Of a DNA stretch of 64,000 nucleotides, positions 16,788 to 64,000 are shown in pieces. The DNA is from Streptomyces umbrinus (GTDB lineage Bacteria; Actinomycetota; Actinomycetes; Streptomycetales; Streptomycetaceae). Below the pieces are notes generated by a model. That model was not told where the DNA came from. It saw only the letters and a list, made by a program, of their open reading frames with translations, and did not search any database. The stretch lies in contig NZ_JAUSZI010000002.1 in NCBI RefSeq assembly GCF_030817415.1, forward strand, positions 2,480,001 through 2,544,000, read 5' to 3'. The translations under genes and the position numbers were made by a program. Within the stretch, counting starts at the first letter, position 1; each line of letters begins with the position of its first letter.

Positions 16788-17651
16788 ATGCGGCTCGACA
16801 CCGAGGAGTACGCCTACAGCGTCGAGTTCATGTGCGGCCGACTCGGCGTGTCCAGGTCCGGCTACTACGACTGGCGATCCCGCCCGGAATCCGCAACGGC
16901 CCAGCGGCGCGAAGAATTGAAACTGCTCATCAAGAAAGCCTTCGACATATCCGACAGCACCTACGGGCACCGGCGCATCCAGGCTCAACTGGATCGCTGG
17001 GGCGTCGCCGCGGGCATGGAGCTGGTCCGCTGCCTCATGCGTGAACTGGGCCTGGTGCCCTGCCAGCCAAGGCCGAAGAGGTTCGGCCTCACCCAGGCCG
17101 CAGCCGGCCAGGTACCGGATCTGGTGGGCCGTGACTTCACCGCAGATGCGCCTGGCGAAAAGCTCGTCGGTGACATCACCTACATCACGACCGGGGAAGG
17201 CTGGCTGTACCTCGCGACGGTCATCGACTGCTGCACGAAGGAAGTTATCGGTTACGCGATGGACGACCACTACCAAACCTCGCTGATATCCAGGGCGATC
17301 CGCAACGCGGCACGGAACAGAAGCCTCTCGGCGGGAGCGATATTTCACTCGGACCGCGGAAGCAACTACATGTCAGCCGAGTTCGGGAAGACGCTCAACC
17401 GGTTCGGACTGCGCAGGTCTTCCGGCCGTACCGGGATCTGTTTCGACAATGCCATGGCCGAATCGTTCTTCGGCGTGTTGAAGAACGAGCGCGTATCTCG
17501 GGTCACTTACCTGACCCGAGAGGCTGCCCGGCAGGACATCACTCGGTACATTGAATTCTGGTACAATCGCAAACGCCTCCACTCGGCGGTGGGTTACCGC
17601 CCTCCACGTGAAGTCCACGCCGAGTACGAAAAGTTGCGAATCGCCGCGTGA
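16788..17651 (+). CDS. IS3-family transposase OrfB (DDE integrase domain)
   Basis: The 287-aa frame has an HTH_21 segment near the N-terminus (SDSTYGHRRIQAQL) and the rve catalytic core: GDITYI with the first Asp, IFHSDRGSNYMS with the second, and DNAMAESFFGVLKNE with the Glu. All three catalytic residues are present. ATG 16788 is a nominal start; translation is more likely by -1 frameshift from OrfA, because the same frame is open upstream for at least 20 codons. Length and motifs match intact IS3/IS150-group elements. Confidence 0.9.
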   Translation: MRLDTEEYAYSVEFMCGRLGVSRSGYYDWRSRPESATAQRREELKLLIKKAFDISDSTYGHRRIQAQLDRWGVAAGMELVRCLMRELGLVPCQPRPKRFGLTQAAAGQVPDLVGRDFTADAPGEKLVGDITYITTGEGWLYLATVIDCCTKEVIGYAMDDHYQTSLISRAIRNAARNRSLSAGAIFHSDRGSNYMSAEFGKTLNRFGLRRSSGRTGICFDNAMAESFFGVLKNERVSRVTYLTREAARQDITRYIEFWYNRKRLHSAVGYRPPREVHAEYEKLRIAA

Positions 17652-17699
17652 AATAGACAGTCAGACGCCTGTCCGGAAAGCACGTGGCCCCTCAGTCCA

Positions 17700-17945
17700 G
17701 CCCGCCAGCGGGCAGCGGACGTGGACCGTGATCGACGAGAAGTACCGGACAGTCGCCCCCGTCGAAGAGTGGTTGGAGGCCCACCGGTTCTTGTGGTCGC
17801 CGAACACCGTCCGCGGCTATGCGACCTCACTGGCCCAGTGGTGGACGTTTCTTGAACAGCGCGACGAGACCGCGAAGTGGCAGGACCTCGGGCTCCCGGC
17901 CGTCGCCGGGTTCCTGTCCTGGCTGCGCAACGGCCGCACCGTTGA
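17700..17945 (+). pseudogene. Tyrosine recombinase, N-terminal fragment
   Basis: The frame containing WTVIDEKYRTVAPVEEWLEA, then SPNTVRGYATSLAQWWTFLE and AVAGFLSWLRNGRTV, is the SAM-like DNA-binding (core-binding) domain of a site-specific tyrosine recombinase. Homology stops near 17945, where sequence of an IS21 istA gene on the other strand begins. The catalytic domain is missing. It is unrelated in detail to the intact recombinase at 19378-20391. Confidence 0.6.
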
Positions 17946-18159
17946 TCAGCGGCGCGACCTCGTCCACCGCCTTCCGGCGGGGCCGGCCGTTCGACACCCT
18001 CCTCGGTGGCGCGGCAGGGGCCTGCCCGGACAGATACTTGCGGACCGTCTTCCTGTTCAGGCCCGTCTCCTTGGCGACCTCCGTCAAAGTCACCGCACCG
18101 GACTCGAACAGGGCACGGAAGCGCCGGAGTTCCAACCAGCGTTGTGGGTCCAAGACCAT
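17945..18159 (-). pseudogene. IS21-type IstA transposase, N-terminal fragment
   Basis: From ATG 18159 the frame reads MVLDPQRWLELRRFRALFES, then AVTLTEVAKETGLNRKTVRKYL, an N-terminal HTH characteristic of IS21-like IstA proteins. It breaks after the VDEVAPLI segment at the junction with the recombinase fragment on the opposite strand. No catalytic domain or IstB partner follows, so it is a remnant. Confidence 0.6.
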
Positions 18160-18289
18160 CGTCAGCTGCCCTCCGCCGCCCCTTGCCAACCAGCAGCAGA
18201 GTGCCGAGCAACAGGACTCACCACATCAACAAGCGGCCCTTTTCACTCGTACGTGACTGGCCGCGTTCACACGTACGCCGACACCCCGG

Positions 18290-18776
18290 TCCGCCTCGAC
18301 GGCAGCATCCTGGCGGCGATCACCCGCGAGTAGCCAGACACCATCACCAAGACCGGCGGCCGGCCGCTCTGCCCATAGCCCAGCGGGATGTCCGCCTCCG
18401 GAAACCACAGGTCGCACTTGGCCAGCTCACCGGGCTGATAGACCGTCCGCGAGACCGGATCCACCGGAACGTAGGCGGGCCGCAGCTCGCGCACCCTCTC
18501 CTTCAAGATGGTCATCCCGCGTTCCCAGCCGATCCGCTCGGCGATCACGGTCGCCGGCATCGTCGGCGTCTCTCTGAGCAGCTCGCGGATCTGCACCTCG
18601 ACCGCGTCGACCGCCGAGCCCTTCAACGGTCTCTCGTACTTCGGCGGCCGGTCATGCGCGAGCGCCCGCTTCACCGTGTTCTTCGAGATACCAAGGTGCC
18701 GGGCGATCGCCCGGATCGGCATCTGCTCGGCCCGGTGCAACCGACGGATCTCTGCCCAGTCCTCCACAAGGATCAC
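18290..18776 (-). pseudogene. Second IS21-type IstA fragment
   Basis: From GTG 18776 the protein reads MILVEDWAEIRRLHRAEQ, IRAIARHLGISKNTVKRALA and RPPKYERP. It continues through the linker (TPTMPATVIAERIGWERG) into the start of the DDE core (GELAKCDLWFPEADIPLGYG, PVLVMVSGYSRVIAARMLPS). It is cut off near 18290, before the rest of the catalytic core. It is clearly a different IS21 lineage from the neighbouring fragment. Translation of the intervening hundred bases shows nothing recognisable. Confidence 0.65.
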
Positions 18777-18864
18777 CTCTTCCTCCTGGCCTTGATCAAC
18801 AAGGCCAGAGTCAGACGAAGATCACCACATGAGTCACTTTTGATCCGCCGTCAGAGGGTCCGCG

Positions 18865-48874: not shown

Positions 48875-51800
48875 ATGAGGAACCGTCTGCAGCTGCTGCT
48901 CCAGGTCATGTTGGTGCTGGTCGCAAGTCTGCTGGGTATCGTCACCAACTACGCTACCAACGAGAACGACGTTCCCTGGCTCCTGCACCTGCTGCAACAG
49001 GTCGCGATACCGGCCATCGGCCTGCTGATCGTCACGATGGTGGTTGTGCAGGTCGTCGTCTACCGGCTGGAAAACCCCGCGCCACCGCCAACAGACTGGC
49101 CCCGCGACCGGGTCCCGTACCCTGGTCTGGACGCTTTTGTGGAGGACGAGGCCGCGGTCTTCTTCGGCAGACGGGCCCAGTCCGAGGATCTGACGCATCG
49201 GCTTCACGCAGTACAGGACCGGCCTGCCGACAGATTCCTTGTGCTCGTCGGTGCGTCAGGGAGCGGCAAGTCGTCCCTGGTGAGAGCAGGTGTGATGCCG
49301 CGGCTGCGCGGTCGACGCTGGTCGGTCCTGCCCGCCTTCTCCCCTGGTCCCAACCCCCTTGGGGCCTTGGCCTCCGCCATCGCCACCGCTGGCGGGGAGC
49401 CCGAGTCCGTAAACGCGGTACTGCGGCGTCTTCGGCTGGACCCCACTGCACTGCTCGCCGAGCTGTCCGGACTGCGTGGGGGCAGGTTTCGCCGCATGCT
49501 CCTCGTGGTCGATCAGTTCGAAGAGGTCATCACGCTCGCCGGCGAGCGTGAACGCACGCAGTTCCTCGACGCCCTCCACGCCTGCGTAACGCGGGATTCC
49601 CGGATCCGGGTGCTCGCCACGCTGCGCGTGGACTTCCTCGGACAACTCCTCGGCACGGACCACGCCGAGCTCTTCCAACATCCGGTCGCCATCGGCGCAC
49701 TCGGCAGGAGCCAGCTCGGCCAGGCGGTGGAGCAACCGGGCACGCTGGTGGGCTTGTCCTTCGCGCCCGGCGTCGTGGAAGCCATCGTCAACGACGCGGG
49801 CACTGACGACGCGCTGCCGCTGCTCGCCTATCTGCTGCAGGAGCTCTACTTCGCCTCTGGTCCCGGTGAGATGGTCACCGAGGAGCTCTATCACCGCCTC
49901 GGCGGTGTGGCCGGCGCCCTCGCCCGGCAAGCCGACCACACCGTGGCGGAGCTCGGTGCCGAGGGCGACAGCATCGACTTCGTGCTGAGGGTGCTGCTGC
50001 GCTTCGTCACTGTCCAAGGCCAGGAGGTGGCCCGGCGGCGCGTGCCGCTCGCCGAGCTGACAGCACAGGAACGACGCGTCGTGGACGCCTTCGTCGAGGC
50101 ACGCCTGCTGATGTCCGACGTACGCGTCGCCCAGGAGCCCTACGCCCAGGTGACGCACGAGGCGCTGTTTCGCCAGTGGGCCCCCTTACGGCAGGAGGTT
50201 GAGGCGCGCGCCGAGCAGCTACGCCAGCGCGCGGAACTCGAACAGTGGGCGGAGGACTGGGAGCGCTCCGGCCGCAGCGCCGACTACCTGCTCACCGGCG
50301 AGAGGTTGACCCTGGCCCAACGCTGGCTGCTCATCCTGCAAGAGACCGGGCAAGCCGCGGAGGCGACGCAGTCGCTCGTGGAGTCCTCGCAACGGCATGA
50401 TCTCGCCTTCCTGCGCCGCGTCTCAGACAGCATCGGGCAGTACGCGCTCGGCGCCGTGGAACAGCAGCCGGAGCAGTCCCTTCTGCTGACGCTGGCAGCA
50501 CTGGGCGAATGCACACCGACAGCAGCCGCCCGGCGTGGCCTGATGACGGCTCTGGCATCCAGCCACCTACGCACCCAACTCGACGGCCACACCGACACCG
50601 TCCGTCACATCGCCTGGTCACCGAACGGCCTCCTGTTGGCCACCGCGTCGCGAGACGGCACCGCCAGAGTCTTCGACGCGCAGTCCGGTCGCTCGCTGCG
50701 GGTCCTCCCCTCCGAGGGCGCCATGGTCGAGGGCGTAGCCTGGTCGCCGGACTCCACCCAGATCGCCACCGTGGGCCGCGACCACGTCGTACGGATCTGG
50801 GACGCCGCATCCGGAGAGCCTCTGCGGTTACTCACCGGCGCCTCCTACATCGGGCGACAGGTCGCCTGGTCACCCAACGGACGCTGGATAGCCGGCACTT
50901 CACGCGACCAGACGGTCCGCGTGTGGGCCGCCAATACAGGTGACCTCGTCCACGAGCTGCACGGACATCACGACGACGTGTGGGGCATCGCCTGGTCCCC
51001 AGACAGCACACGCCTGGCCTCGGCCTCACACGATCAGACCGCCCTCGTGTGGGACCTGTCCACCGGCACGTCGGTGACGACGCTGACCGGCCACTCCGAC
51101 TTCGTGGAGGGCATCGCCTGGTCCCCGGACGGACGTCTCATCGCCACCGGCTCCGGTGACCACACTGTGCGGATCTTCGACGCAGAGAGCGGCGCACTGC
51201 GGCTCCTGGTACGCGGCCACACGGACTACGTCTGGAACGTCGCCTGGTCACCCGACGGGCAGATGCTCGCCTCGGCCTCCTCTGACCAGACCGTACGGAT
51301 CGTCGACGCCCACGACGCGAGAGTCATCGCCGTCCTGCGCGGACACACCGACACGGTCTGGGGAGTGACGTGGTCCCCATCGGGTGGCCAGCTCGCCACC
51401 AGCTCCACCGACGGCACCGGACGCGTATGGGACCTGCGGCCACACGGCGCCGAAAGCTTGCTTCTCGACGGGCACCGCGGACCCGTGAACCAGGCGGCTT
51501 GGTCTCGCGACGACACCCGCATCGCCACCGCGTCGGACGACGGAATAGTGCGCGTCTGGGACGCCGCCACAGGCGCCCTGTCCGGCCCCGTGGTCGAACA
51601 GACGGACCGCGTTTGGAGCGCCGCGTGGTCACCGCTCGACGACCGGCTGGCCATTAGCACCAACGACGGCGTCTTTCGCATCGTCCACACGAGCCAGGAC
51701 AACGCCCTCGACCACCGGGGAGCCGTCGTCGAGTCGGTCGCCTGGTCCCCCGACGGCAACCGCATCGCCACCGGGGACCACGACGGAACCGTGCGTGTCT

Positions 51801-52414
51801 GGTCGTCCCAAGCCGGGGCGGAGCTAAGTTCCCTGGCAGGGCACCAGGACTGGATCAACCGCATCGCGTGGTCCTCCAGCGGCCGCCTGCTGGCCAGCGC
51901 TTCGGACGACCGTACGTGCCGACTCTGGGACGTGGCCGAATGCCGACAGCTCACCGTGCTCCGCGGTCACGACAACTACGTCGACGACGTCGCCTGGTCA
52001 CCCGACGAACAGCGCATCGCCACCGCTTCCGGGGACTGGACGGCCGCAGTCTGGAATACCACGACGGGCCGCCACATCGAGAGCCTTAAGGGCCACGAGG
52101 GACGGGTGCGCGCCATCGACTGGTCCCCAGACGGCCGACTCATCGCCACCGGATCCGACGACCGCACGGTGCGCATCTGGTCGTCCGCCACCTTCGAGGA
52201 GATCGCCATCGTGGGCGTGCACCAGGACAAAGTGGCCTCGGTCGCCTGGTCCCGGGACGGCACGCGCCTACTCACCGCGTCCTTCGACGGCACCGCCCGC
52301 GTGTGGCCCGCCGACCCCGACTTCAACCGCCTGGAGGCGGGAGCCCGCGGTCGGGTCTTCCGCGTCCTCAGCGACGACGAGCGGCGACACCACATGCTGC
52401 CGCTGGCCCGGTGA
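48875..52414 (+). CDS. Membrane-anchored STAND-type NTPase with 14 WD40 repeats
   Basis: This is a 1,179-aa protein. Two N-terminal membrane helices come first (LQLLLQVMLVLVASLLGIVT and an IPAIGLLIVTMVVVQVVVY segment). An nSTAND1-like P-loop module follows: PYPGLDAFVEDEAAVFFGRR, VLVGASGSGKSSLVRAG with Lys132, and RMLLVVDQFEEVI as Walker B. A helical arm follows, then fourteen WD40 repeats from about residue 565 (each with a VxxxAWSPDG...RVWD-type core), enough for two seven-bladed propellers. Such proteins sense a ligand through the propeller and oligomerise on nucleotide binding. Relatives act in signalling or as anti-phage sensors. TTA codons lie at 50186 and 50828. Confidence 0.88.
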   Translation: MRNRLQLLLQVMLVLVASLLGIVTNYATNENDVPWLLHLLQQVAIPAIGLLIVTMVVVQVVVYRLENPAPPPTDWPRDRVPYPGLDAFVEDEAAVFFGRRAQSEDLTHRLHAVQDRPADRFLVLVGASGSGKSSLVRAGVMPRLRGRRWSVLPAFSPGPNPLGALASAIATAGGEPESVNAVLRRLRLDPTALLAELSGLRGGRFRRMLLVVDQFEEVITLAGERERTQFLDALHACVTRDSRIRVLATLRVDFLGQLLGTDHAELFQHPVAIGALGRSQLGQAVEQPGTLVGLSFAPGVVEAIVNDAGTDDALPLLAYLLQELYFASGPGEMVTEELYHRLGGVAGALARQADHTVAELGAEGDSIDFVLRVLLRFVTVQGQEVARRRVPLAELTAQERRVVDAFVEARLLMSDVRVAQEPYAQVTHEALFRQWAPLRQEVEARAEQLRQRAELEQWAEDWERSGRSADYLLTGERLTLAQRWLLILQETGQAAEATQSLVESSQRHDLAFLRRVSDSIGQYALGAVEQQPEQSLLLTLAALGECTPTAAARRGLMTALASSHLRTQLDGHTDTVRHIAWSPNGLLLATASRDGTARVFDAQSGRSLRVLPSEGAMVEGVAWSPDSTQIATVGRDHVVRIWDAASGEPLRLLTGASYIGRQVAWSPNGRWIAGTSRDQTVRVWAANTGDLVHELHGHHDDVWGIAWSPDSTRLASASHDQTALVWDLSTGTSVTTLTGHSDFVEGIAWSPDGRLIATGSGDHTVRIFDAESGALRLLVRGHTDYVWNVAWSPDGQMLASASSDQTVRIVDAHDARVIAVLRGHTDTVWGVTWSPSGGQLATSSTDGTGRVWDLRPHGAESLLLDGHRGPVNQAAWSRDDTRIATASDDGIVRVWDAATGALSGPVVEQTDRVWSAAWSPLDDRLAISTNDGVFRIVHTSQDNALDHRGAVVESVAWSPDGNRIATGDHDGTVRVWSSQAGAELSSLAGHQDWINRIAWSSSGRLLASASDDRTCRLWDVAECRQLTVLRGHDNYVDDVAWSPDEQRIATASGDWTAAVWNTTTGRHIESLKGHEGRVRAIDWSPDGRLIATGSDDRTVRIWSSATFEEIAIVGVHQDKVASVAWSRDGTRLLTASFDGTARVWPADPDFNRLEAGARGRVFRVLSDDERRHHMLPLAR

Positions 52415-52723: not shown

Positions 52724-53070
52724 ACGAGTCCCTCCCCATTCGCAGTTCTCGGACCGCAGAGTATGTGTCGGAGCGAGGCCATCGGTACTTACCGAAAGGG
52801 CCGGAACGGCCACTGTTGGCTTTCACCGCAGTATGCGCCCGATGGGGAACCGCAGTCGACGTGCCTCCCCATCCGGAGACATCACCAGTGGCTGACACCC
52901 GACCACAGGTTCAACCCGACGGGAAACCGGGCTACAGGCCCATCGGCAGGAGACCCAAGCCGACACAGGCCCTCCCACGCCTCCTCCGATCGCGGAACCG
53001 GACGGCGACATCGCTGAGGAGGACTGACTCAGCAGGCGCCAGCGGCACTGAGCATGCTGTCGGCCACTGC
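52724..53070. other. Gene-free stretch after the pPIWI-RE operon
   Basis: About 350 bases hold no supported gene. A weakly palindromic GC-rich section near 52990-53050 could hold the operon's terminator, but no clean hairpin is seen. Confidence 0.25.
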
Positions 53071-55851
53071 TTACGCCTCGCTCTCAGACCCGTCCTCGTC
53101 GCCGTGCTCGGGCGTGGCCCCGATCGAGGCCGTCCCCGGATCGGCTTGCTCCGTGTCTTCCATGGGCTCGGCGTACTTCGCGGCGAGCCGGGCGAGGTGC
53201 AGGGCGAGTGGAAGCTGGAGCGCGTTGGCATAGTCGTCCGGGAAGCGCTGCTGGTGGACGTACATGGCCCACTGCTCCGGATCGTCGCCTGGTTGGAGTG
53301 CTGCCATGCAGAGGTCCAGGATTTCGGGATTCCACGCCGGCGTACCTGGCATGCGTAGAGACCGTCCGGCTGTGTTCCGGTGCTCGGTGAACTTACTGAT
53401 GTCACGGGGGTGTCCGTGCTGGCTGGCCTTGTCCGAGGTGCTCGCGAAGAGACGATTGTCCTGCGGCGCGTCAGCGGGCACCCAGAGCCCCTTGGCAACC
53501 CCGGCGCCCACGTCCCCGTCGGGTGCCCACCACTGCGGTGTCTCCTCCCGGTCGTGGCTCGCGATGCGGACGACCCGCAGGCGGCGGCCGTGCGCGGCAA
53601 GCCGCTGAAGTGGTCCGGCGCCCAGGCTCAGGCGGTCGACGGCCAGCCCGGGGTTGGTCAACCACGGCCAGCGCTGGCGGGTGTTCTGTGCGTGGGTGAG
53701 GACGAGGGTCGGCTCGCCGCGCAGCTTGTACAGCGTCTGCTTGACGAACAGGGCGGTTGCGTCTTCCTGCTGCTTCCGCGTCCTGAGATCTGTGCTGCGG
53801 ATCTTTCCGGTGAGGCTGCGCAGCAACTCGGGGTACGGCACCCAGTCCGACGTTTCCGCCGTACGGCCGAGCACACAGTCCTGGCCAGGACGGATGAGTA
53901 CGGCGATCGGGGTGAACTGCGGGTATTTGTTGTCGCGGCTGACGTTGCGCTTGACGAGCCAGAAGGCGAGCTGGTTCAGGGCCTCCGGGATGGCCGCACC
54001 GAGTGAATGCTCGGGCAGGAACCGCATCCCGAGCTGCCGCAGGCCATCGCTCCAGGCAGCCTTGGCCCGGTGCGGGTCCGAAACAGCCTCTGGCTTGGTG
54101 CCGTCCGGGTCCGGGAGGTCCAAGAACTGGCTGACCAGGCCGGCGTCAGCAAGCCCCACACGCAGCGCGGACTTAGGGTCGCTGGTGCGACGCCGGAAGC
54201 CGTCCTTGCCCTCCAACTCGACGAATGCCAGCTGAGGGTGCGTGCCCAGATCGGTCGTCCAGGTGCGCATTGCGTCACGCGCCGCACGCCGTCGCGTATC
54301 CATGGCGGCGTCCCATTCGTCGCCGCGCCGCAGAGTGCTGCCCTCACCCAGCGGGCCGACGAGTTCCCCGGCCTGCCGGACGTGGAGACGCACGGTCAGG
54401 TCGGGATGGTCCCACTGCCACAGGTCGGGGCCACCGGCCGTGCGGTGCTGCGCGAGGCCGAGGTTCTCCTCGGCAGCCGCGACCAGGTGGTCGCGCATGG
54501 TATCGGTCTGGTGCAGCAGTACGGCGGTGAGCCCAGCGGGGCCGACGGCGCGCACGAGAAGGGGGCGCCGTCGGGCGGCGTTGCGCGCCTGCCGCTCGAC
54601 ATTCTCCCGGTCGATCCTCGCCTTGTCCTCGTCGGTGGCCTTCTTCGGCACGGAGGCGGTGGACTCGAGCACGTTGTGCGGAGTCTGGCGCCGGATCCCG
54701 CTGCGCCGGGATGTGCTGACGCGCATGAACTCAGGTGACAGTGCCGCCGTGGCCCACTCCGTCAGGCGCCGTCGCTCCTGCGGCGCGATTCCGGCCTGTA
54801 CCCCGTGTCGTCCCATCATCGTGTGGTGCACCACTGCGGCGGTGACGCCGTCCCGGCCGGTGAGCCAGGTCTCCGGCTCCTTGGCCATGAGGTCGGGTGA
54901 GGGGAAGCGGGGGACGGCAGAGATCTGGTTCAGCATCCCCTCCGGCCCTCCCTGAACCCACGCGTAGCCCCCGGTCTGGGGCACCCAGCGCAGGCCGCCG
55001 ACCGCGAACCGTTCCGGGGCGGGTCCGTCGGGCACAAGGCTCTGGTCTGCCAGCAGGTAGACGGAGGCGCTTCCCCGCTGCGGCAGCCAGACGGGACCAC
55101 GTACCCATCGGCGTACACCGGTGGAGATGTGGATGCGGGGAGTCGGGTCGAAGGGAGCGGTGCGCAGACAGATCCGGATGTACGCGGAGTAGTTCCACAC
55201 CTTGGCCTTCGCACCACGTCCGGTGGGGTGCTCCAGCGGCGGCCAGGAGACGAGCTCGGCCCCGGGAGCTCCTGCGTCCATCGCGACCTGCCGGAACGAA
55301 AGCCGCTCGCCGAAGTGCTCGTAGGCCGGTACCTGACGTGCGATGCGGGCGGCGAGGACCTCGGGCAGAAGCCGCCACAGGTGGTCGGCGGGCACGGCGG
55401 TGCCGCCGTCACCGACGGTCTGCTCCAGCATGTCGACGCTGAGGAGATCCCACTCCAGGCCGTCGATGTCCAGCAGGGAGGCGGTCTCCTTGACTTTGGC
55501 GTGTCCCTCGGGGCCCGGCTGCAGATCGCGCAGCCAGGCGTGGATGAAGGTGCTCATCACCGCCTTGGGATAGGGGGCGTTCGCGTACAGCCAGGGCCAG
55601 CCGTCGTCGAGTGGGGCCCTCTTGGCCACGGATACCAAGTCGGGGGCAACGGCGGCGATCACCTGGTTGAGCCGCTTGATGGGCACCGACACCTTGCCAC
55701 GGTCGCGCCGCTCGGGCTTGCCGTGCTGCCAGTGGTCCTTGAGAGGGTCCCGCCAGGCTCGGGGGAAGGCGAGTGCGTAGTGGGGCATGAGGAAGGGATC
55801 GCCGCCCGGTGTGGGGACGAAGGCGGCCGGCTGGATGTGGTCGTAGGCCAT
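53071..55851 (-). CDS. pPIWI-RE protein (prokaryotic PIWI/Argonaute-related)
   Basis: The 926-aa product starts MAYDHIQPAAFVPTPGGDPF and ends in an acidic tail (TEQADPGTASIGATPEHGDE). Length, operon partners and several blocks fit the pPIWI-RE family, which has an N-terminal X module, a MID-like domain and a C-terminal RNase H-fold PIWI domain with the conserved Arg and Glu that give the name. The blocks include NKYPQFTPIAVLIRPGQ, then TLVLTHAQNTRQRWPWLTN and RFPDDYANALQLPLALHLAR. The published family is predicted to bind RNA or R-loop nucleic acid and guide an associated nuclease and helicase against invading DNA. It lies 103 bases after the helicase gene on the same strand. The family assignment rests mainly on context plus these blocks. 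Confidence 0.8.
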   Translation of the reverse strand: MAYDHIQPAAFVPTPGGDPFLMPHYALAFPRAWRDPLKDHWQHGKPERRDRGKVSVPIKRLNQVIAAVAPDLVSVAKRAPLDDGWPWLYANAPYPKAVMSTFIHAWLRDLQPGPEGHAKVKETASLLDIDGLEWDLLSVDMLEQTVGDGGTAVPADHLWRLLPEVLAARIARQVPAYEHFGERLSFRQVAMDAGAPGAELVSWPPLEHPTGRGAKAKVWNYSAYIRICLRTAPFDPTPRIHISTGVRRWVRGPVWLPQRGSASVYLLADQSLVPDGPAPERFAVGGLRWVPQTGGYAWVQGGPEGMLNQISAVPRFPSPDLMAKEPETWLTGRDGVTAAVVHHTMMGRHGVQAGIAPQERRRLTEWATAALSPEFMRVSTSRRSGIRRQTPHNVLESTASVPKKATDEDKARIDRENVERQARNAARRRPLLVRAVGPAGLTAVLLHQTDTMRDHLVAAAEENLGLAQHRTAGGPDLWQWDHPDLTVRLHVRQAGELVGPLGEGSTLRRGDEWDAAMDTRRRAARDAMRTWTTDLGTHPQLAFVELEGKDGFRRRTSDPKSALRVGLADAGLVSQFLDLPDPDGTKPEAVSDPHRAKAAWSDGLRQLGMRFLPEHSLGAAIPEALNQLAFWLVKRNVSRDNKYPQFTPIAVLIRPGQDCVLGRTAETSDWVPYPELLRSLTGKIRSTDLRTRKQQEDATALFVKQTLYKLRGEPTLVLTHAQNTRQRWPWLTNPGLAVDRLSLGAGPLQRLAAHGRRLRVVRIASHDREETPQWWAPDGDVGAGVAKGLWVPADAPQDNRLFASTSDKASQHGHPRDISKFTEHRNTAGRSLRMPGTPAWNPEILDLCMAALQPGDDPEQWAMYVHQQRFPDDYANALQLPLALHLARLAAKYAEPMEDTEQADPGTASIGATPEHGDEDGSESEA

Positions 55852-55954
55852 GGCGGGGTGGGTCTCCGTTCGAATCGGGGAGAAGTGTCAGTGAGTGTCA
55901 TTCCGATGCGCGAGAGTGCGTCGATGCGCTGGCGCGGGAGTGCCGGCGGGGGCG

Positions 55955-58900
55955 TCAATCCATGTCCGCCAGTGCCTTGTAGAGCGGCTCGTACAAGGCC
56001 TCGACCAGGGACTTGTCGATCGCGGGCATGGCGGATTCGGCACTGAAGTAGGGGGCGAGGAGTGCGTGCATGCTCGCCAGCAGGCTGGTGGCGGGGGTGT
56101 CGGTGGCCGCGAGGCCCGCCTCGCGTGGTGAGAAGGCGGCGTCGACGAATACGACGCGAGCAGGCACTCCGCCCCGCACGAGGCGGCCGATGACCTGCCA
56201 CATCACGACCAGCTGGTCCCAGGTGAACGCCTCCTTCTCGGCCTTGGGGAGGCTGGTCCACGACAGTCGGCGAGTCAGGAAGCGGTTCCAGGCGCGGCGG
56301 GCGTCACGCCGGAAGGCGAGCCCCGCCCGGTCGGGGGTGCCTTCCCGGCGGGCCAGGCGCCGCAGGCCCTCGCCCGTGCCACGGATCTGCCGTACCGCCC
56401 AGTCGTTGACGGCCTGCACGGCGAGTGCGATGTCGTCGGGACGGGGGTGTGGGCGGGCCAGGAAGTAGACGGTGCCGATGGCTGCCTTGCCTCCGGGAAC
56501 GACAATGTTGTGGCCGCGTTCGACGGCGAGGAGCGGGGCGACGAGAAGTTCCCCGTCGGCCTGGCCTCCGCGCGCCCAGCCCGCCACGTCGCCCCGTCGC
56601 AGAGCCTTCGCCTCGGCGGTATGCGGCAGGGCGCTCCAGGCCGTGTCGAGGTCGGCGTCGTCGGAGACGAGCCGGGAGACCCGACCGGCCCATTCGGGGA
56701 TCGAGTTGAGGTACGCGGCGGCCCTGCGGGCCTCCTCGTAGCTGCCGACGAGGAGCAGCAGGCGGCGCCTATCGAGGTCTTCGATGTCGTCGAGTTCCTG
56801 CTGGAGGGCGCTGACCGAGCCGGTGAGGCTGCGGTCGGGCTCGGCGAGCTGGTGCAGCATCTGGACTAGGGCGGCCGGGCGTTCCTCCGGGTCGCAGCCG
56901 GACAGCCGCAGCGGTCTTGTACTTCCGGGCCAGTACAGGAACTCCTTGCGGAACTCGGTGTCGAGGATGGCGCGCACCTCCTCCTTGTGCGGGCGCAGCA
57001 CCGCATCGACATCGGCGTGCACGTGGTAGCGGCTGGAGGTCCCGGCCCAGCTGGTGGCGGACATCAGCATCAGATGCGGGCCAGGCCGTCCGTCGACGGC
57101 TGGCAGGTCGGGCAGACCGAGCAGCAGTTCGCGTCCCACACCGTTGCAGCGGAAGAAGCGCAATTCGCCACTCTGCTCGCCCTCTTTTCTCCTCTCGTCC
57201 AGCTGGAACTGGAAGCCGAGGACGTTGCCCATGGGCGACTCGGACATCACGGGCTCGTAGTCACGGGGCGGGCGACGGGAGAGCACATTGGAGGCGGACT
57301 CCAGGTTGAGGACCGCCTCGACGCGCTGCCAGAGCCCGGTCATGAAGTTGAGCCGATGGTGCAAAGCGGCGAGGACCAAGGTGAGTTCGAACCGGGGCAC
57401 ATGGGGGTCGGGTCCGGCTTCGACTCGTACGGCACCGTTGAGGAGCCGCTCCAGCACGGGCCGCACCTGGGTGCGAGTGTCGGAGCCGTGAGGGGCGTGC
57501 AGTAGACCGAGGGTGAGATGGACGAGCTCGTTGACGAGCACGGTCTCCGCCGGATCTGTCTCGGGTTCGGTGCCAGCGGTACGGGGCTGGAGCGGGTCGT
57601 CACGGAAGCGGTTGAGTACGCCGTCGATCCGCTCGCGCTGCGCAAGGCGCCGGGCCTCGGGCATCCCCTCGGACACGGTGCTCTCGTCCACGTCCTTGAG
57701 GTCAGGGAACCAGGCGTTGATGAGCCACTGGTGGAGGGTGACCGCGCTGAAGTAGTCCTGAGTGATCCAGTGGCGCAGCGCGTGGTTCTGGATGAGGCGC
57801 GAGTACAGCCGGTCGGTGGCGTGGCGCACGGTGTGAGTAGCGTTCGTCCAGTCGTCGATGTCCCGTGCCGAGAGCTGGAGTCGCGCCTGCCCGGCGAGTT
57901 CGGCAAGGGCATGGGCAGCGACCTCGTCGATCCACGAGTTCGGGGCGCGTCCGGCGAGAGTGGTGGCGGGGGCGAACGCCGTGTCGAGCTGCATCTGCAC
58001 CCGGTCCGCCTCATCCACGATGACCAAGTCGCTCATCCGGCAGGCGAGTTCGAGGTAACGCAGCCGCTGCTGCTGAAGCTGTTCGGGCACGGCAGTGTGG
58101 ACGAGACTCGCGGGAGTGGCAACCCACACCCGGGCGTCGACGAGTTGACGGGCCGCGTGATGGCGAGGGCAGCGGGACCACAGGGGGCAGCCGTGACGCC
58201 GCGGGCGTTCGTCGTCCGTGGACGCGGCACTCGCAGCGGGTTCAGCGGCCGCTGCCCCGTCGAGGGCCTCCCCATCATCATCGGGATCTGCCTCGGAACC
58301 CTCCCCGCCGAACAGCCCTTCCCGCGGGTCCACCGTCTCCGTGGGTGTCCGGCGCACCTCGTAGAGGTTTCCGCACGGCGCCTCGCCGACGCGCAGCGGT
58401 CGCTCCGCCTCCATGCCGCGCAGGGCATCGAGTGGGCAGGCGCTGTTGACGTGGTCGAAACCGTCGTGCCAGTGGGTGAGCAGGCTTGGGGTGCCGCTCG
58501 ACGCGATGCGCCGGTGGAGTCGCTGGATGTGGCGCTCGCGCGTGGAGTGGCCGAGTACTGGTGCGGTCGGCACGCCCAGACGGTCCAGGAGTCCGGTGAC
58601 GGACAGGGCTTCGGCGACATCGCCGACGACGACGGTGATCCGCAGCCCACGTTCGGTGACGGCCCAGAAGGTGAGGATGTCACGCAGGGTGCTCTTGCCG
58701 GCGCCGACCATGCCGACGAGGTGGAGGAGCCGGTCGATGCGCAGGGTGTCGCTCTGCTCGAACTTTCCTTGTCCCTCGTCGCGTACGAACAGCTCGACGC
58801 GCCTCAGGCGCTGGAGCCAGTGGCCATACGCAATGTCCGGGGTCTTTGACTCGATCACGTCCATACGGCGCGCGGCGGCTTCCAGTTCGCGCCACTCGAC

Positions 58901-59494
58901 GGTGATCGGCTCACCCTTGCCGGGCAGCGGCGCATCGAGGTCATGTGCGGCCGTCGGTCCGTCCGGAAGCAGGTCCTCTGTGAAGGTGACGGCGTACCGG
59001 CGGTCGCGGACGGGGAAGACGTAGTCTCCGGCCTGGGCGTGCGGCAGTCGGTGACGCGCGTACGGGGGCGGCTCCCCGAGCACCTTCTCGTAGCGCTCGA
59101 AGCGGCGTGCGGCCCGCGCGGGCGAGCGACGCACGGGCACGGACTCCGCCGATGCGAGATCGTATCCGCGCAGTTCCTGGGGAACGGCGAGGTAGGACTC
59201 GAGGGCGTGCAGCCATTCCCGGCGCCTGCGCAGGGGCAGCAGGTAGTGCCGGGCTCGCCGGACGCGCAGTCGCTGCGCGTCGGTGGTGATGTCGCCGAAC
59301 GCCTCCCCGAACGGGTAGCCACTGACGAGTGTCCACGTGTCGATGGCGGCCCGGCCCGGCATGACCGACTCCAGGAGGTACAGGCCGAGTTCCACATCTA
59401 GTAGATCGCCGGGGTTGAAGGAGCGGGGTCCGTCCTGCCATGCGTCCTTCAAGGGGGCGGTCAGCCCGCGGTGCCAACCGCTGCGGTCACGCAT
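55955..59494 (-). CDS. pPIWI-RE-associated DinG/XPD-like helicase
   Basis: ATG 59494 overlaps the REase gene stop by eight bases. The 1,179-aa protein has Walker A LVGMVGAGKSTLRDI (Lys267) and a DEAD box LVIVDEADRVQMQLD (about 492-496). Motif III-like LMSATSWAG and motif VI MWQVIGRLVRGG (about 1104) follow. Between motifs I and II, four Cys in HVNSACPL, APCGNLYE and GCPLWSRCPRH resemble the XPD/DinG iron-sulfur cluster site, with the spacing stretched. It should unwind DNA or RNA:DNA hybrids using ATP. A helicase of this type is the standard partner of pPIWI-RE. Confidence 0.88.
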   Translation of the reverse strand: MRDRSGWHRGLTAPLKDAWQDGPRSFNPGDLLDVELGLYLLESVMPGRAAIDTWTLVSGYPFGEAFGDITTDAQRLRVRRARHYLLPLRRRREWLHALESYLAVPQELRGYDLASAESVPVRRSPARAARRFERYEKVLGEPPPYARHRLPHAQAGDYVFPVRDRRYAVTFTEDLLPDGPTAAHDLDAPLPGKGEPITVEWRELEAAARRMDVIESKTPDIAYGHWLQRLRRVELFVRDEGQGKFEQSDTLRIDRLLHLVGMVGAGKSTLRDILTFWAVTERGLRITVVVGDVAEALSVTGLLDRLGVPTAPVLGHSTRERHIQRLHRRIASSGTPSLLTHWHDGFDHVNSACPLDALRGMEAERPLRVGEAPCGNLYEVRRTPTETVDPREGLFGGEGSEADPDDDGEALDGAAAAEPAASAASTDDERPRRHGCPLWSRCPRHHAARQLVDARVWVATPASLVHTAVPEQLQQQRLRYLELACRMSDLVIVDEADRVQMQLDTAFAPATTLAGRAPNSWIDEVAAHALAELAGQARLQLSARDIDDWTNATHTVRHATDRLYSRLIQNHALRHWITQDYFSAVTLHQWLINAWFPDLKDVDESTVSEGMPEARRLAQRERIDGVLNRFRDDPLQPRTAGTEPETDPAETVLVNELVHLTLGLLHAPHGSDTRTQVRPVLERLLNGAVRVEAGPDPHVPRFELTLVLAALHHRLNFMTGLWQRVEAVLNLESASNVLSRRPPRDYEPVMSESPMGNVLGFQFQLDERRKEGEQSGELRFFRCNGVGRELLLGLPDLPAVDGRPGPHLMLMSATSWAGTSSRYHVHADVDAVLRPHKEEVRAILDTEFRKEFLYWPGSTRPLRLSGCDPEERPAALVQMLHQLAEPDRSLTGSVSALQQELDDIEDLDRRRLLLLVGSYEEARRAAAYLNSIPEWAGRVSRLVSDDADLDTAWSALPHTAEAKALRRGDVAGWARGGQADGELLVAPLLAVERGHNIVVPGGKAAIGTVYFLARPHPRPDDIALAVQAVNDWAVRQIRGTGEGLRRLARREGTPDRAGLAFRRDARRAWNRFLTRRLSWTSLPKAEKEAFTWDQLVVMWQVIGRLVRGGVPARVVFVDAAFSPREAGLAATDTPATSLLASMHALLAPYFSAESAMPAIDKSLVEALYEPLYKALADMD

Positions 59495-60698
59495 CGAGCT
59501 CTCCTTCCTGGGGTTTCGGTGTCGTTCGCTGTACTCTCCGTGCTGTCCGGGGCGTCGGCCGGGCGGTTCCCGGCTCGGTGTGCCGCATGGTGCGGGCCAG
59601 GGTGCTTTTCGCCTGCCGCACGACCTCCTCGTCCGTGAGCAGGCTGACGTGGCCTTCGACTCCCTCGGGCAGATGGTGGTGGAAGACTTCGCGGTAGCCG
59701 TCCCGCTCCTTGAACCTGTAGGAGGGCACGACGAGCAACCCCCGGTCGTAGGGCGGTTCGCCGCGCAGGGCGGTGGTGGTCCGGCCAAGCAGCGCGGGGT
59801 TGGCTCGGTCCTTGACGTCGACGCCCCACGCCCGGCCGTCGGGAAAGACCACACGGAGGTCGTACGCGTCGAAGTTGGGCCACATCGCGACGTCGAGGCC
59901 GAGTCCCACAAGCCGCTGTTCCAGGTCGGTCTCGGCCAGTCCGGGGCCGGTGATGAAGACACGAAGCGGCCTGGTGAGGAGGTACAGACCGCCGTCGGCC
60001 CCGGGTTTGAGGCGTTCTCCGACGGCCACGGGCCTCCTGCGGCAGCGGTCGAGCGTGCAGGCGTATCCGTCGTCCCGCAAGGGCACCAGCAGACACCCGC
60101 AACCGGCGCACAGCGTGCACTGCCCATGGCTGACGTAGGTGGCGGTGACCGGCTCGTAGCACCGCTTCACGGTGTCGAGCAGCAGTGACAGGTCCAAGTC
60201 GGCGCTGAGCAGGGCGAGTTCGACACCTGTCAGGACGGGGCGCTCGATGAGCAGCCTGCGGAAGGCGGTGTAGGAGTCGGGGGCCTTGGCCGCCCGGCAC
60301 AGGGTGAGCGCCTCTTTGAGTAGTGCGTTCTCGATCTGCTCGGCGGCCGGATCTGGTGCGAAGATGGCCCACTCCAGGCACTCCTGGGCGGGGGCGCCGG
60401 TGTCCGCGTCGACCAGCCGCAGGTCACCGATGTGCTGGTCTTCGAAGAGGTACGGCCACCAGTCTGCCAGTGGGCGTGCAGCCGCCCACCGGGCGAGCTG
60501 CGGCACACTGCCGGGGGCCGGACGCCCGGTGCGCAGGCAGACGAGGACGAGATGGTTGTAGGCGGCCTGCACGACATCGGGGTAGACGGGATCGCCGGGC
60601 GTGCGCAGCCGGGACAGGCGTACCAAGGCAGTAGCGACCAGCCTCAGCAGCCGCTCGGACTCGGCATCTGCGACATCCGGGGGTTCAACGGCGGCCAC
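59487..60698 (-). CDS. pPIWI-RE-associated restriction-endonuclease-fold protein
   Basis: GTG 60698 follows AGGAGGTG (60704-60710); the longer open frame upstream is shadow of the preceding gene. The 403-aa protein has a helical N-terminal half and a zinc-ribbon-like Cys cluster (CTLCAGCGCLLVP, then CTLDRC). The PD-(D/E)XK-type core is FDAYDLRVVFPDGRAWGVDV with the catalytic-like DVK (Lys296). It is the predicted DNA-cutting subunit of the pPIWI-RE module. Its stop overlaps the helicase start, and its start lies inside the end of the upstream nuclease gene, showing tight coupling. Confidence 0.82.
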   Translation of the reverse strand: MAAVEPPDVADAESERLLRLVATALVRLSRLRTPGDPVYPDVVQAAYNHLVLVCLRTGRPAPGSVPQLARWAAARPLADWWPYLFEDQHIGDLRLVDADTGAPAQECLEWAIFAPDPAAEQIENALLKEALTLCRAAKAPDSYTAFRRLLIERPVLTGVELALLSADLDLSLLLDTVKRCYEPVTATYVSHGQCTLCAGCGCLLVPLRDDGYACTLDRCRRRPVAVGERLKPGADGGLYLLTRPLRVFITGPGLAETDLEQRLVGLGLDVAMWPNFDAYDLRVVFPDGRAWGVDVKDRANPALLGRTTTALRGEPPYDRGLLVVPSYRFKERDGYREVFHHHLPEGVEGHVSLLTDEEVVRQAKSTLARTMRHTEPGTARPTPRTARRVQRTTPKPQEGELDA

Positions 60699-62295
60699 GA
60701 CGCACCTCCTCGGGGGCGCTCGCGCACCACTCGGTAACAGGGCAGGTGCGGCAGTGGGCGCCGGGCCTGGGCGTGAAGACCTCGTCGCCGCGCCACGCAT
60801 CGACGTACTCCCGCACAAGCCGACGGGCGGCCTCGACGCGCTCGGGCTCGTTGCACGGCTCGATGTACGAAGGGTCGCCACTGTCCGGCCGCAGCACCTC
60901 CAGCTCGACCCGCGAGCCCGCAGGGTCGCCGCCGAAGGCCCCTTCGGCAAGAAGGACGACGGCGAGGGCGAGTTGCGGGTCGGTGGTGAAGGGGTCCCGG
61001 CCCATCCAGGCATCCGCGCTCTGAGTCGTCTTGGTCTCGCGCCACACCCATGAGCCATGCTCCAGGTAGAGCAGGTCCGGTTTCACGATCAGGACGGCAT
61101 GGGCGTACGGGTCGTAGAAGGCGCGCCGGGGCTCGGGCAGCACGGTCGTGACGCCGTCGTTGAGGAGCGGGCACATGTCGATGTGTTGGGCGAGCATGCG
61201 GGACCCGATGCGCGACCACTCATCGGTCATGCGCAGCTCCCCGTCACCCCAGGCGGTGTCGCCCCAGGGCATGTCCGCGCCCCCACACGGCGTCAGGAGA
61301 CCGCTCCTGTGGTTGGCCTCCAGATGGGCGTGGACGGCCTTGCCGAGCTGGTTCTCCGGGGAGTACTCGCGGGTCCGGGGGAGGTGCTGGGCGTAGGAGA
61401 AGTACATCTGCGGACACTTGCGGTAGTAGCGCAGGTGGCTGGCGGACAGCTCCCGCAGTGGGAAGGGGCCTCGGCCGGCGGGGATGCCGAGCAGGCCGGG
61501 CAAACGAACCGGAGCGTCACAGGTCTCCAGCCGACGGCAGCCCACGCAGCTGCCGCCGGGTGTTGCAGGGCCGCCACCCACGATCTCCTTGACGCGCGCT
61601 TCTGCATGCTCTTCGTAGTAGGCGCGGACCGTGTCGGGCCCGCCCTCGAAGAGGAGCCGGTACGAGCCGTCGTGCAGCCCGGTGAGGGCCACGCGCACGT
61701 GGTCGACGGGCTCGGCACCGAGGAGCCGATACGGGTGCCAGGGCTTGGCGCCCTGCCGTGCGGGTTCCCCGAGGGCGGCGGCGAGGGCGGCGATCGCGAT
61801 GCGGTCCTTCGGGACAGACCGGGGGTCGGCGCTGCCGTAGCAGAGGAAGGAGAACTCGCGAAGCCGCCGTCCCGGGTTGTGGTGGCAGGCCCCCCAGCCG
61901 GTCAGCTCCCACGTCCGCCCGTCTACCTCCCGCATCCGCACCCACGGGCCGGGAGCGGGAATCACAGGCGGCGCCTCCTTGGGCCGGTCGCGTTCGAGCC
62001 ACCGCGCGACGGCGTGCCGCAGGAAGCGGCGCTGGGCCCGGTGGAGGGAACGCCCGGCAGAGTCTTCGGCCTGCCGTACGGCGTCCTGTGGGGCCATGCC
62101 CTCGCACTCGACGAGCCGCACAGCGGCGAGGACGAGGCCGAGGACGAAGTTCTCCAGATACGGCTTCGGCCGCTCAACGCGGCGGCCAGGCCAGGCGTTC
62201 GGCCGCGTCTTGCCCTCTGCGAAGCGCAGGCAAGTGTACTGCTCGTCCGCCGCGTGCGAAGCCTGCACCCGGATCAGCGCGCCGCTGCCGGTCAT
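60685..62295 (-). CDS. PD-(D/E)XK (Cas4/RecB-like) nuclease, first gene of the pPIWI-RE operon
   Basis: ATG 62295 (MTGSGALIRVQASHAADEQY) follows GGAGGGG very closely, so the start could be a little different. The 536-aa protein has SASHLRYYRKCPQMYFSYAQ, a RecB-family N-terminal block. The active site is VKPDLLYLEHGSWVWRETKT, with Asp407, Glu420 and Lys422. A C-terminal triplet in HCRTCPVTEWC, together with the upstream Cys in YRKCP, recalls the 4Fe-4S ring of Cas4/AddB nucleases. A further CVGCRRLETC lies in the middle. Its stop overlaps the REase start by 14 bases. It is not part of the minimal three-gene pPIWI-RE core and may add end-processing or spacer-like activity. Confidence 0.82.
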   Translation of the reverse strand: MTGSGALIRVQASHAADEQYTCLRFAEGKTRPNAWPGRRVERPKPYLENFVLGLVLAAVRLVECEGMAPQDAVRQAEDSAGRSLHRAQRRFLRHAVARWLERDRPKEAPPVIPAPGPWVRMREVDGRTWELTGWGACHHNPGRRLREFSFLCYGSADPRSVPKDRIAIAALAAALGEPARQGAKPWHPYRLLGAEPVDHVRVALTGLHDGSYRLLFEGGPDTVRAYYEEHAEARVKEIVGGGPATPGGSCVGCRRLETCDAPVRLPGLLGIPAGRGPFPLRELSASHLRYYRKCPQMYFSYAQHLPRTREYSPENQLGKAVHAHLEANHRSGLLTPCGGADMPWGDTAWGDGELRMTDEWSRIGSRMLAQHIDMCPLLNDGVTTVLPEPRRAFYDPYAHAVLIVKPDLLYLEHGSWVWRETKTTQSADAWMGRDPFTTDPQLALAVVLLAEGAFGGDPAGSRVELEVLRPDSGDPSYIEPCNEPERVEAARRLVREYVDAWRGDEVFTPRPGAHCRTCPVTEWCASAPEEVRRGRR

Positions 62296-62569
62296 CCCCT
62301 CCGGGGGTGGCCACTCCGCCCCTGCTGCTCCGCCCCTGCCTCTGTCCTGCACGGTCCGTCTCCCTCGGCAACTGCGGTGCCCACGGCACACTCCACCCGT
62401 CGCTGCGGCCCCCTGAGGCGACCGTAGTAAGACCGTACCAGAGTGTGAATATAGCCAACCAAAATCTGTGATCTAAGTTCGACGCTACTGTGATCCTGTT
62501 CGACTCACGCGAATTCGCGTAGGGTCGACTGCACCCCCCGAGCTGCCGGAAGACGAGGAGCCGAGGAGC
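62296..62569. promoter_or_regulatory. Divergent control region of the defence locus
   Basis: This gap separates the pPIWI-RE operon from the methylase. It contains two direct repeats, CTGTGATCTAAGTTCGAC (62466-62483) and CTGTGATCCTGTTCGAC (62488-62504), 22 bases apart. The palindrome ACGCGAATTCGCGT lies at 62507-62520. TTCGAC (62499-62504) with TAGGGT (62520-62525) could serve as a -35/-10 pair for the methylase, though the 15-base spacing is short. The repeats overlap this, suggesting repression, perhaps by the methylase's own N-terminal HTH. Confidence 0.5.
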
Positions 62570-64000
62570 ATGACGACAGGCCGAGTGGAGGTGACCGCGG
62601 CGGACATCGCCCGGTTCGCCGAGGTGAAACCGACCGCCGTCAGCAACTGGCGCAAGCGGCACAACGACTTCCCCCAACCCGTTGGCGGCACCGACCGCAG
62701 CCCCCGTTTCGACCTCGCCGAGGTCGAAGAGTGGCTTGGACGCCAGGGCAAGGCCCGGCGTATCGCGGTGGCCGAGCGGCTGTGGCAAAGCTTCGAATCC
62801 GCAAGGGTTGGCAGCGCCGCCGAGGACGCCCTGGCCCTCACCGGCCTGCTCCTGTTCCACCTCCACCGCCATCCCGGTACACAGAGCCCGCACGACAAGG
62901 CGGGCATGGTCCAGCTGATGGAGCGCGCCGAGCACACCTTCGCCGAGGCTCCCGGCGGCACGGTCGGCAGTCTCGGCGAACTCCTCAGCCCCCTTCAGTA
63001 CGAGCTCGGTGCCCGGTTGCTCTCCCTCCTGGTCACCGCTACCGAGGCCGCGGCGGCCGATGGCGCGCGCGCCACCTTCGACGACCTGTGCGCCCGCTTC
63101 TTGCACCAGGGCTCACGTTCCAGCCTCGCCGCCACACCCCGAGAACTCGCCGACCTGATGGTCACCCTCGCCGGGGCGCCCACCGACGGCGCGGTGCTCG
63201 ACGCCTCCTGCGGCAGCGGAACCTTCCTCCTCGCCGCCGCCGACGCGGGTGCCACCCGCGTCCAGGGTCAGGAGCTCAGCCACTCCCTCGCCCTCTTCGC
63301 CGCCCTCCGCCTGGCCTTCCGTAACACCGATCCGGCAGCGACGGCCGTCTCCTTCGACGTGCACACCGGCGACTTCCTGCGCCGCCCCGCCTTCCGTTCC
63401 GGGCGCGCGGCGGCCGTCGTCGGTCACCCACCGTTCGCCGACCGCAACTGGGGCCACGAAGAGCTTGTCGACCATGTGAGCTGGGAGTACGGCTTCCCAC
63501 CCCGCGGCGAGTCGGAACTCGCCTGGATCCAGCAGACCCTCGCCCATGCCGCTCCGGGTGCGCCGGTAGTCCTCCTCCTGCCCCCGGCGGTCGCCTTCCG
63601 CCCCTCTGGCCGCCGCATCCGACAGGAGCTGCTGCGCCGGGGCGCGCTACGCGCGGTGCTCTCCCTTCCCGCCGGCTACGCGGCCCACTACGCGCTCGCC
63701 CTCCAGATCTGGGTCCTGCGCCGCCCTGAACTGGGTGAACTGCCGCCTGCCCACGTCCTGATGACAGACACCGGGAACGAGCAGGATCCGCGCAGCATGA
63801 TCCAGGATCTCTGGGTGCGGTACGTAGCGGCGGCCGACGACGCTTCCTCGTTCCTGGAGCGCCCCGGCGTGGCTCGGTCGGTCCCTGTGATGGATCTCCT
63901 CGACGACGATGTCGACTTGACCCCGCGCCGTCATCTGCCCCAGCCCGCCGCACTCGGCGTGAGTGCCGAAACACTGGACGCGGCTCGTACCACCGTGGAC
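62570..64000 (+). CDS. N6-adenine-type DNA methylase with N-terminal HTH, partial at right edge
   Basis: ATG 62570 (MTTGRVEVTAADIARFAEVK) has GAGGAG upstream; 477 codons are visible and the frame runs off the window. Residues 8-65 form an excisionase/MerR-like HTH (PTAVSNWRKRHNDFPQPVGG). Next comes a class I methyltransferase: motif I VLDASCGSGTFLLAA (CGSGTF at 214-219) and motif IV VVGHPPFADRNWG. Here the expected Asn of NPPF is His286, an unusual substitution at the base-binding catalytic position. The architecture resembles type I/BREX-like adenine methylases (HsdM/PglX relatives). It is divergent from the pPIWI-RE operon and probably protects host DNA or regulates the locus. Confidence 0.8.
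   Translation, partial: MTTGRVEVTAADIARFAEVKPTAVSNWRKRHNDFPQPVGGTDRSPRFDLAEVEEWLGRQGKARRIAVAERLWQSFESARVGSAAEDALALTGLLLFHLHRHPGTQSPHDKAGMVQLMERAEHTFAEAPGGTVGSLGELLSPLQYELGARLLSLLVTATEAAAADGARATFDDLCARFLHQGSRSSLAATPRELADLMVTLAGAPTDGAVLDASCGSGTFLLAAADAGATRVQGQELSHSLALFAALRLAFRNTDPAATAVSFDVHTGDFLRRPAFRSGRAAAVVGHPPFADRNWGHEELVDHVSWEYGFPPRGESELAWIQQTLAHAAPGAPVVLLLPPAVAFRPSGRRIRQELLRRGALRAVLSLPAGYAAHYALALQIWVLRRPELGELPPAHVLMTDTGNEQDPRSMIQDLWVRYVAAADDASSFLERPGVARSVPVMDLLDDDVDLTPRRHLPQPAALGVSAETLDAARTTVD

Follow-up and report, generated by a model that had tools for sequence, protein, structure and literature searches.

Among the closest described relatives of the locus analysed here is the pPIWI-RE three-gene system of Burroughs, Iyer and Aravind (2013, PMC3702460). 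In the accessible parts of that paper, a further nuclease is not described and the lack of a methylase is noted; in the authors' proposal, pPIWI acts as the sensor of RNA-DNA hybrids and brings in DinG and the REase. A member of the same pPIWI-RE family, PsPIWI-RE of Pseudomonas stutzeri, has D525/D610 as its catalytic pair, according to the accessible text of PMC10991935.

The locus lies at the end of the window, by which we mean the whole 64,000-nucleotide stretch of Streptomyces umbrinus DNA that was analysed. All five genes named in a preliminary description of this DNA were located where it had placed them, four on the minus strand and one, the methylase-like gene MT, divergent from them:

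53071-55851, minus strand: pPIWI-RE protein (P0001, here pPIWI), 926 aa, with X, MID and RNase H domains
55955-59494, minus strand: DinG-like helicase with a Z domain (DinG), 1179 aa, ATG at 59494
59487-60698, minus strand: REase with a Y domain, 403 aa, GTG at 60698
60685-62295, minus strand: NUC (P0004), a PD-(D/E)XK, RecB/Cas4-like nuclease, 536 aa, ATG at 62295
62296-62569, no strand: divergent NUC-MT intergenic region, with two GATCACA copies
62570-64774, plus strand: MT (P0008), 734 aa, running past the window end at 64000, with an HTH, an HsdM-like domain and an HsdS-like half

The mechanical open reading frames of DinG (1390 aa) and the REase (523 aa) were over-long, and an alternative upstream start of NUC, GTG at 62391, is possible. 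NUC and the REase overlap by 14 bases and the REase and DinG by 8 bases, and a gap of 103 bases separates DinG from pPIWI. On the minus strand, one GATCACA copy lies at 62495-62489 and the other, at a distance of 22 bases, at 62473-62467; both are kept in three other species.

Profile searches with Pfam and PADLOC bore out the preliminary assignment of a Cas4/RecB-like nuclease, a REase, a DinG-like helicase and a pPIWI protein. The pPIWI protein matched pPIWI_RE_X (1.9e-89), MID_pPIWI_RE (4.3e-30) and RNaseH_pPIWI_RE (9.2e-63), in the order X-MID-RNase H that marks the pPIWI-RE family. Also above the Pfam cut-off were pPIWI_RE_Z (8e-43), pPIWI_RE_Y (3.2e-37), pPIWI_RE_REase (4.4e-34), PDDEXK_1 in NUC (2.5e-23) and N6_Mtase in MT (1.6e-24). 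Chance is excluded as the source of these domain matches. All four core proteins strongly matched the Ppr models of PADLOC-DB (PprPIWI 8.9e-180, PprDinG 4e-250, PprRE 6.3e-80, PprPDDEXK 2.6e-79), completing the four-protein Ppr set; NCBIfam had no model for them. MT and the kinase discussed below matched PADLOC models of other systems (MTase_I, PD-T4-6, mad2, mad6) and no Ppr model.

The locus shares with the three-gene system, as far as the accessible text of PMC3702460 describes it, the closely spaced, one-strand order REase > DinG > pPIWI, the X/Y/Z domains and the zinc-ribbon cysteines. It differs in having NUC as first gene, a divergent MT and a cognate kinase. Because NUC precedes the REase and MT is divergent, and both recur, we regard the locus as a variant and not as the 2013 triad. 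The nuclease and the methylase had been put forward as additions to the minimal description; both are indeed absent from the parts of the 2013 paper that could be consulted, but the nuclease is modelled as PprPDDEXK in PADLOC-DB (2023). Since that database models all four proteins, the four-gene core is not new, and we discarded the idea that it was undescribed. NUC, MT and the kinase are not mentioned as partners in the accessible parts of the papers on this family among the matches listed (PMC3702460, PMC10991935); subscription journals and preprints lay mostly outside this search, and an earlier mention is possible. A paper on EVE/DCD domains (PMC7641849) was set aside as irrelevant to pPIWI-RE, 'piwi-re' standing there for 'Piwi-related'.

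We then considered the fold and active site of pPIWI. Sequence searches matched neither pPIWI nor NUC to a solved structure. The predicted model of pPIWI matched the Argonaute/PIWI fold, and the claim that the 926-aa protein is a PIWI protein therefore stood. This model places beta-1 at 626-635, and where an active RNase H domain has its aspartates, pPIWI has W631 (beta-1) and H720 (beta-4). They lie 89 residues apart, compared to 85 for the Asp pair of PsPIWI-RE; D525 and D610, through which PsPIWI-RE cuts, are both missing here. An Asp at 628-635 on beta-1 was absent from 123/123 aligned pPIWI proteins. The beta-4 column (720) holds H here and in 61/123 and D in 35/123; the Asp is kept in 20/29 SARP-type rows, in 12/23 NUC-less rows and in two Nostoc pPIWI proteins. 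At the columns taken for the family's conserved Arg and Glu, R762 is present, and D846 stands where 94/100 NUC-type relatives have Glu, both columns being placed by spacing only. With W631 and H720, pPIWI is predicted to be nuclease-dead. P0001 was also matched on plasmids (7 records), and in the two of these that were inspected, both from Nostoc, no nuclease is annotated before the REase.

At this locus, the catalytic motifs of the other core proteins are intact. NUC carries D407/E420/K422/Q441 and seven cysteines in 97/97 aligned proteins, including the Cas4/AddB-type pattern C294, C515, C518 and C524 and a second CxxCxxxxxC; the PD-(D/E)XK residues and the four-cysteine pattern together are those of a Cas4/RecB-like nuclease. 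Walker A, DEAD and motif VI of DinG are intact, with key residues in 100/100, and its translation shows cysteines that are candidates for the iron-binding region of DinG. The REase has zinc-ribbon cysteines and intact D280/D294/K296, and the D/D/K set is intact in 35/39 MT+kinase, 20/20 C-module and 33/33 NUC-less loci. In SARP-type loci, by contrast, the REase lacks the catalytic Lys in 29/29, while NUC stays intact. Outside these SARP+kinase loci the REase is mostly intact and the beta-4 Asp mostly His, with NUC intact throughout. Judged by residues, the active sites of REase and pPIWI look interchangeable between loci, the REase appearing dead where pPIWI often keeps the beta-4 Asp. The partner in the SARP+kinase loci, for instance L047 and L042, is a SARP/NB-ARC/TPR regulator, next to a REase whose active site is lost.

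In a further step, we surveyed the linkage of these genes. RNaseH_pPIWI_RE was found in 70/246 Streptomyces genomes and the REase domain in 55/246, and pPIWI-RE occurred in 6/396 genomes of the phylum. With five candidates scored per genome, P0004-like NUC gave 35 strong matches (at least 122 bits) in the 246 genomes, the remainder reaching 23 bits at most, and these are exactly the 35 NUC-bearing pPIWI-RE loci of our table. The table combined 74 fetched neighbourhoods with this locus (75 rows), and presence was scored by tblastn, since gene calling missed NUC in L108, L110 and L156. Among the NUC-bearing loci, 15 had MT+kinase, 9 SARP+kinase and 8 a C module; MT alone was scored in two, L058 and the locus studied here, and another partner in one, L079. 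Among the 40 NUC-less rows, 36 had nothing, 3 had MT matches that are the HsdM of type I systems and 1 had a kinase; six of the 40 were fragments or had no upstream sequence (L081, L103-L107), and L087 had no called REase or DinG. MT was present in 17/35 NUC loci versus 0/33 distinct REase-bearing NUC-less loci (Fisher 1.3e-6, kinship ignored). This test overstates the independent evidence because the NUC-bearing operons form essentially one pPIWI clade, and the tree is the fairer view of MT linkage.

NUC loci from GTDB species gave a second, named set, the best 80 of 146, all titled Actinomycetota, a group that the set favours because the search patterns were drawn from Streptomyces. Of the 79 loci with the core in reach, 24 had MT+kinase, 23 had SARP+kinase and 15 had the C module. 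MT alone was seen in 5 and no module in 8; a kinase alone was seen in 4, of which at least three are on contigs ending near the kinase. The genus and named sets overlap, L058 and L126 being one contig, for instance, and their counts cannot be added. Thus, NUC and MT recur, and the possibility raised at the outset, that they would be unlinked in all other pPIWI-RE loci, did not hold.

Two further arrangements were seen in these sets. The C module (for example L067:2505-7430) consists of four conserved genes divergent from NUC. Their products have 299, 374, 503 and 447 aa; the fourth is an SF1-type helicase, and the other three gave no Pfam or PADLOC match; C-module loci (8 genus and 15 named rows, overlapping) contain neither MT nor kinase. 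In L079, a 1034-aa caspase-DEAD helicase protein is encoded at 5608-8712, divergent from the NUC-bearing operon.

The pPIWI and MT trees are quick trees with long-branch warnings. NUC-bearing loci grouped together in the pPIWI tree (support 96, 100 rows), with the very long-branched NUC-less L092 included and L079 outside. SARP+kinase rows formed one clade (support 100) and MT+kinase rows nearly one (support 97, L070 outside); this locus fell in a third clade (support 99) with C-module loci, eight unlabelled loci and L058/L120. Module labels changed 12 times on the tree, compared to a mean of 75.1 after shuffling. Co-divergence was measured in 27 MT+kinase loci, out of 29 with all five genes, after near-copies were dropped. 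Pairwise distances correlated at 0.95 for pPIWI-DinG, 0.94 for pPIWI-NUC, 0.93 for pPIWI-MT, 0.89 for pPIWI-kinase and 0.88 for MT-kinase, and 0/2000 permutations reached any of these values. Since the correlations are near those of the operon genes themselves, MT and the kinase are inherited almost as tightly as the operon, and they look like long-standing partners of this operon kind. The genus linkage, the tree and the co-divergence ruled out that MT stands beside NUC as a chance neighbour. Its presence in 17 loci is likewise not explained by its belonging to a common family (matches in 182/246 Streptomyces genomes, four candidates scored per genome), since it was found in 0/33 NUC-less operons.

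Our favoured reading, which we consider about equally likely to be right or wrong, is that the locus may serve in defence, as a pPIWI-RE cassette of an actinobacterial subtype with four genes (NUC-REase-DinG-pPIWI), under the control of an MT/kinase module inherited along with it. Several observations weigh against it. No module was recognised in 8/79 named loci, and C-module loci lack MT and kinase; the NUC-bearing operons are essentially a single pPIWI clade. At this locus, the kinase is separated from MT by about 8 kb with four genes, and MT falls outside the main MT+kinase clade, in a subfamily in which 56/62 rows are database proteins taken without gene context.

We next considered MT itself. 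Its HsdM-like domain had as best solved match the M subunit of PacII (7vru, 2.3e-51), a non-canonical type I R-M enzyme of M1M2S composition, and its HsdS-like half-specificity domain matched 5ybb_D (9.5e-12) and 3okg_A (1.1e-11). The predicted model (pLDDT 87.3) had type I methylases as top Foldseek matches. MT differs from PacII in the HTH at its N-terminus, in the half-specificity domain fused to it and at motif IV, which reads HPPF and not NPPF/NPPY; it thus lacks the NPP(F/Y) of an active N6-adenine DNA methylase. Motif I (DASCGSGT), the SAM pocket, is present, with the D..CG core in nearly all listed relatives' patterns. In the accessible part of the PacII study (PMC9613975), double mutants of the motif IV Asn and aromatic residue were inactive.

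These features bear on whether, as in restriction-modification, an active MT marks host DNA while NUC and REase cut unmarked DNA found through pPIWI and DinG, an explanation we regard as unlikely. The recurrence of MT with NUC, the strong HsdM match together with the half-specificity domain, and the kept motif I are consistent with it. Among NUC-linked MTs, moreover, the motif IV Asn is found in 26/41 and full NPPF in 16/41, so that some linked MTs may be active, which also counts against our favoured reading. However, NPPF or NPPY occurs in only those 16/41, in 3/19 unlinked MTs (HPPF in 15/19) and in 40 of 119 database relatives (APPF 45, NPPF 40, HPPF 15), and the SARP+kinase and C modules beside NUC hold no MT. 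The suggestion that the methylase marks self DNA is weakened by the HPPF of this protein and by the erosion of motif IV in most relatives. Together with the PacII mutants, these make MT likelier a reader or regulator than a protecting methylase.

Only this genome and G078 had MT matches above 400 bits (four candidates per genome), and both copies adjoin NUC; no plasmid match was found at 1e-60. In the MT tree, the 28 MTs of MT+kinase loci formed one clade (support 100), unlinked chromosomal MTs another, and a third clade (support 99) held the four MTs with type I-like surroundings. One of these four, L202, has a second methylase-like match and no HsdR match. The MT studied here belongs to a fourth subfamily with L108-L110, L058 and L120. 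L058 also encodes a second MT-family protein (17110-18813, 567 aa, DPPV) directly after pPIWI. An MT-family gene and a kinase also occur as a chromosomal pair on one strand without pPIWI-RE; this was seen in L204 (G000:C2:5011000-5024000) and in 13 of the 18 further unlinked MT loci that were fetched.

Beyond the window, MT is followed by HsdM (59 bases downstream), HsdS and HsdR in the same direction, AIPR in the opposite direction and the kinase P0013. A blastn comparison revealed a 22.6-kb block common to Streptomyces aureoverticillatus, S. samsunensis and S. typhae. Its edges are sharp. With the numbering of the window, the left edge falls at 52892-53066, or 5-179 bases beyond the stop of pPIWI, and the right edge at 75625-75631, or 11-17 bases beyond the stop of P0013. 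The flanks differ in the four species, and the only match outside the block was a separate stretch of 726 bases in S. typhae. Breaks within the block lie over HsdS in 2/3 species. Integration scars were not seen: the two ends of the block in this genome share no 11-base repeat, direct or inverted, and neither carries a tRNA gene; a single tRNA-Arg lies well inside one flank (L244). An nSTAND1-WD40 protein is encoded directly outside the left edge (48875-52414), and a 3592-aa open reading frame occupies window positions 3874-14652. The nuclease and methylase of the preliminary description stand as recurrent partners, but the kinase and the type I R-M genes lay beyond its view.

MT might instead belong to the downstream type I system, perhaps as a mixed M1/M2 pair with HsdM, its adjacency to NUC being incidental. 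MT, HsdM, HsdS and HsdR do run in one direction here and in the three related species, unlinked MTs precede a second methylase-like gene in 4/19 cases and HsdR in 3/19, and the best solved match of MT is a two-M enzyme. We nevertheless find this distinctly improbable: MTs with a type I setting form their own clade, apart from MT here; in L058, L120 and L126, a related MT diverges from NUC and type I genes are absent; and in L051/L180 the order is NUC-MT-kinase with nothing between.

Still more doubtful is a role outside defence, in DNA replication or repair. Deletion of PIWI-RE in Pseudomonas stutzeri raised ciprofloxacin sensitivity, as stated in the accessible part of PMC10991935. The patchy presence in genus and phylum, the sharp edges of the block, whose flanks differ among the four species, and the defence-type neighbours (type I R-M and AIPR) argue against such a role.

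In the favoured reading, the kinase forms the control module together with MT. P0013 is a Ser/Thr kinase with TPR-like repeats, and the kinase is adjacent in 3/3 other species that share the block. When the kinases of this genome were matched to a profile of pPIWI-linked kinases, P0013 ranked second among 64, and the top-ranked kinase adjoins the chromosomal MT paralogue. After the kinase domain, a DPTx(x)[FYW][RH] signature was found in 38/56 distinct NUC-adjacent kinases (50/56 in a loose form) and in 0/11 other kinases of the same loci. In this genome, P0013 alone carries it among 25 kinases inspected, two of which are without a catalytic loop by pattern. The kinase is divergent from the operon in 39/39 rows with MT and kinase (genus and named sets, overlapping), and the order here, NUC-MT-[HsdMSR, AIPR]-kinase, equals the L051/L180 order plus an insert. 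MADS and Pgl/BREX-2 are defence systems with a methylase plus a Ser/Thr kinase, and the locus here likewise pairs a methylase-like protein with a kinase. In contrast to both, the core here consists of pPIWI-RE, DinG and two PD-(D/E)XK nucleases. P0008 matched mad2 weakly (7.7e-18), and the mad6 match of P0013 (9.2e-61) is within the general kinase signal. A literature search on the kinase and MADS returned unrelated papers only.

The reading as a defence cassette builds on gene content and order, fold, linkage, co-divergence, the sharp-edged block, the lost aspartates and the intact NUC, REase and DinG motifs, all evident from sequence, and would work as follows. Without cutting, pPIWI would bind either a guide or an RNA-DNA hybrid (R-loop) formed on invading DNA, and DinG would open or travel along that structure. 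REase and NUC would destroy DNA, with NUC as the constant effector. MT may use its specificity domain and SAM pocket to read DNA sequence, repress or license the divergent operon and signal to the kinase, which would switch the nucleases. The sensing part is taken from PMC3702460, within its accessible text, and the roles of NUC, MT and kinase are added here. More tentatively, the locus could be a six-gene immune machine of Actinomycetota, in which a nuclease-dead pPIWI and DinG recognise, two PD-(D/E)XK nucleases execute, and a pseudo-methylase and a kinase (DPTxPFR) arm the system.

For the pPIWI-RE operons, a group related to Argonaute, hardly any biology has been tested so far. One of their branches always comes with an extra nuclease and mostly with one of three control modules. 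Together with the co-divergence of MT and kinase with pPIWI, this makes a defined gene set for cloning out of a vague operon, and it predicts which parts would be enzymes and which only readers. If the reading is true, one system would link recognition of the guide type with signalling by a kinase and DNA reading by a methylase-like protein.
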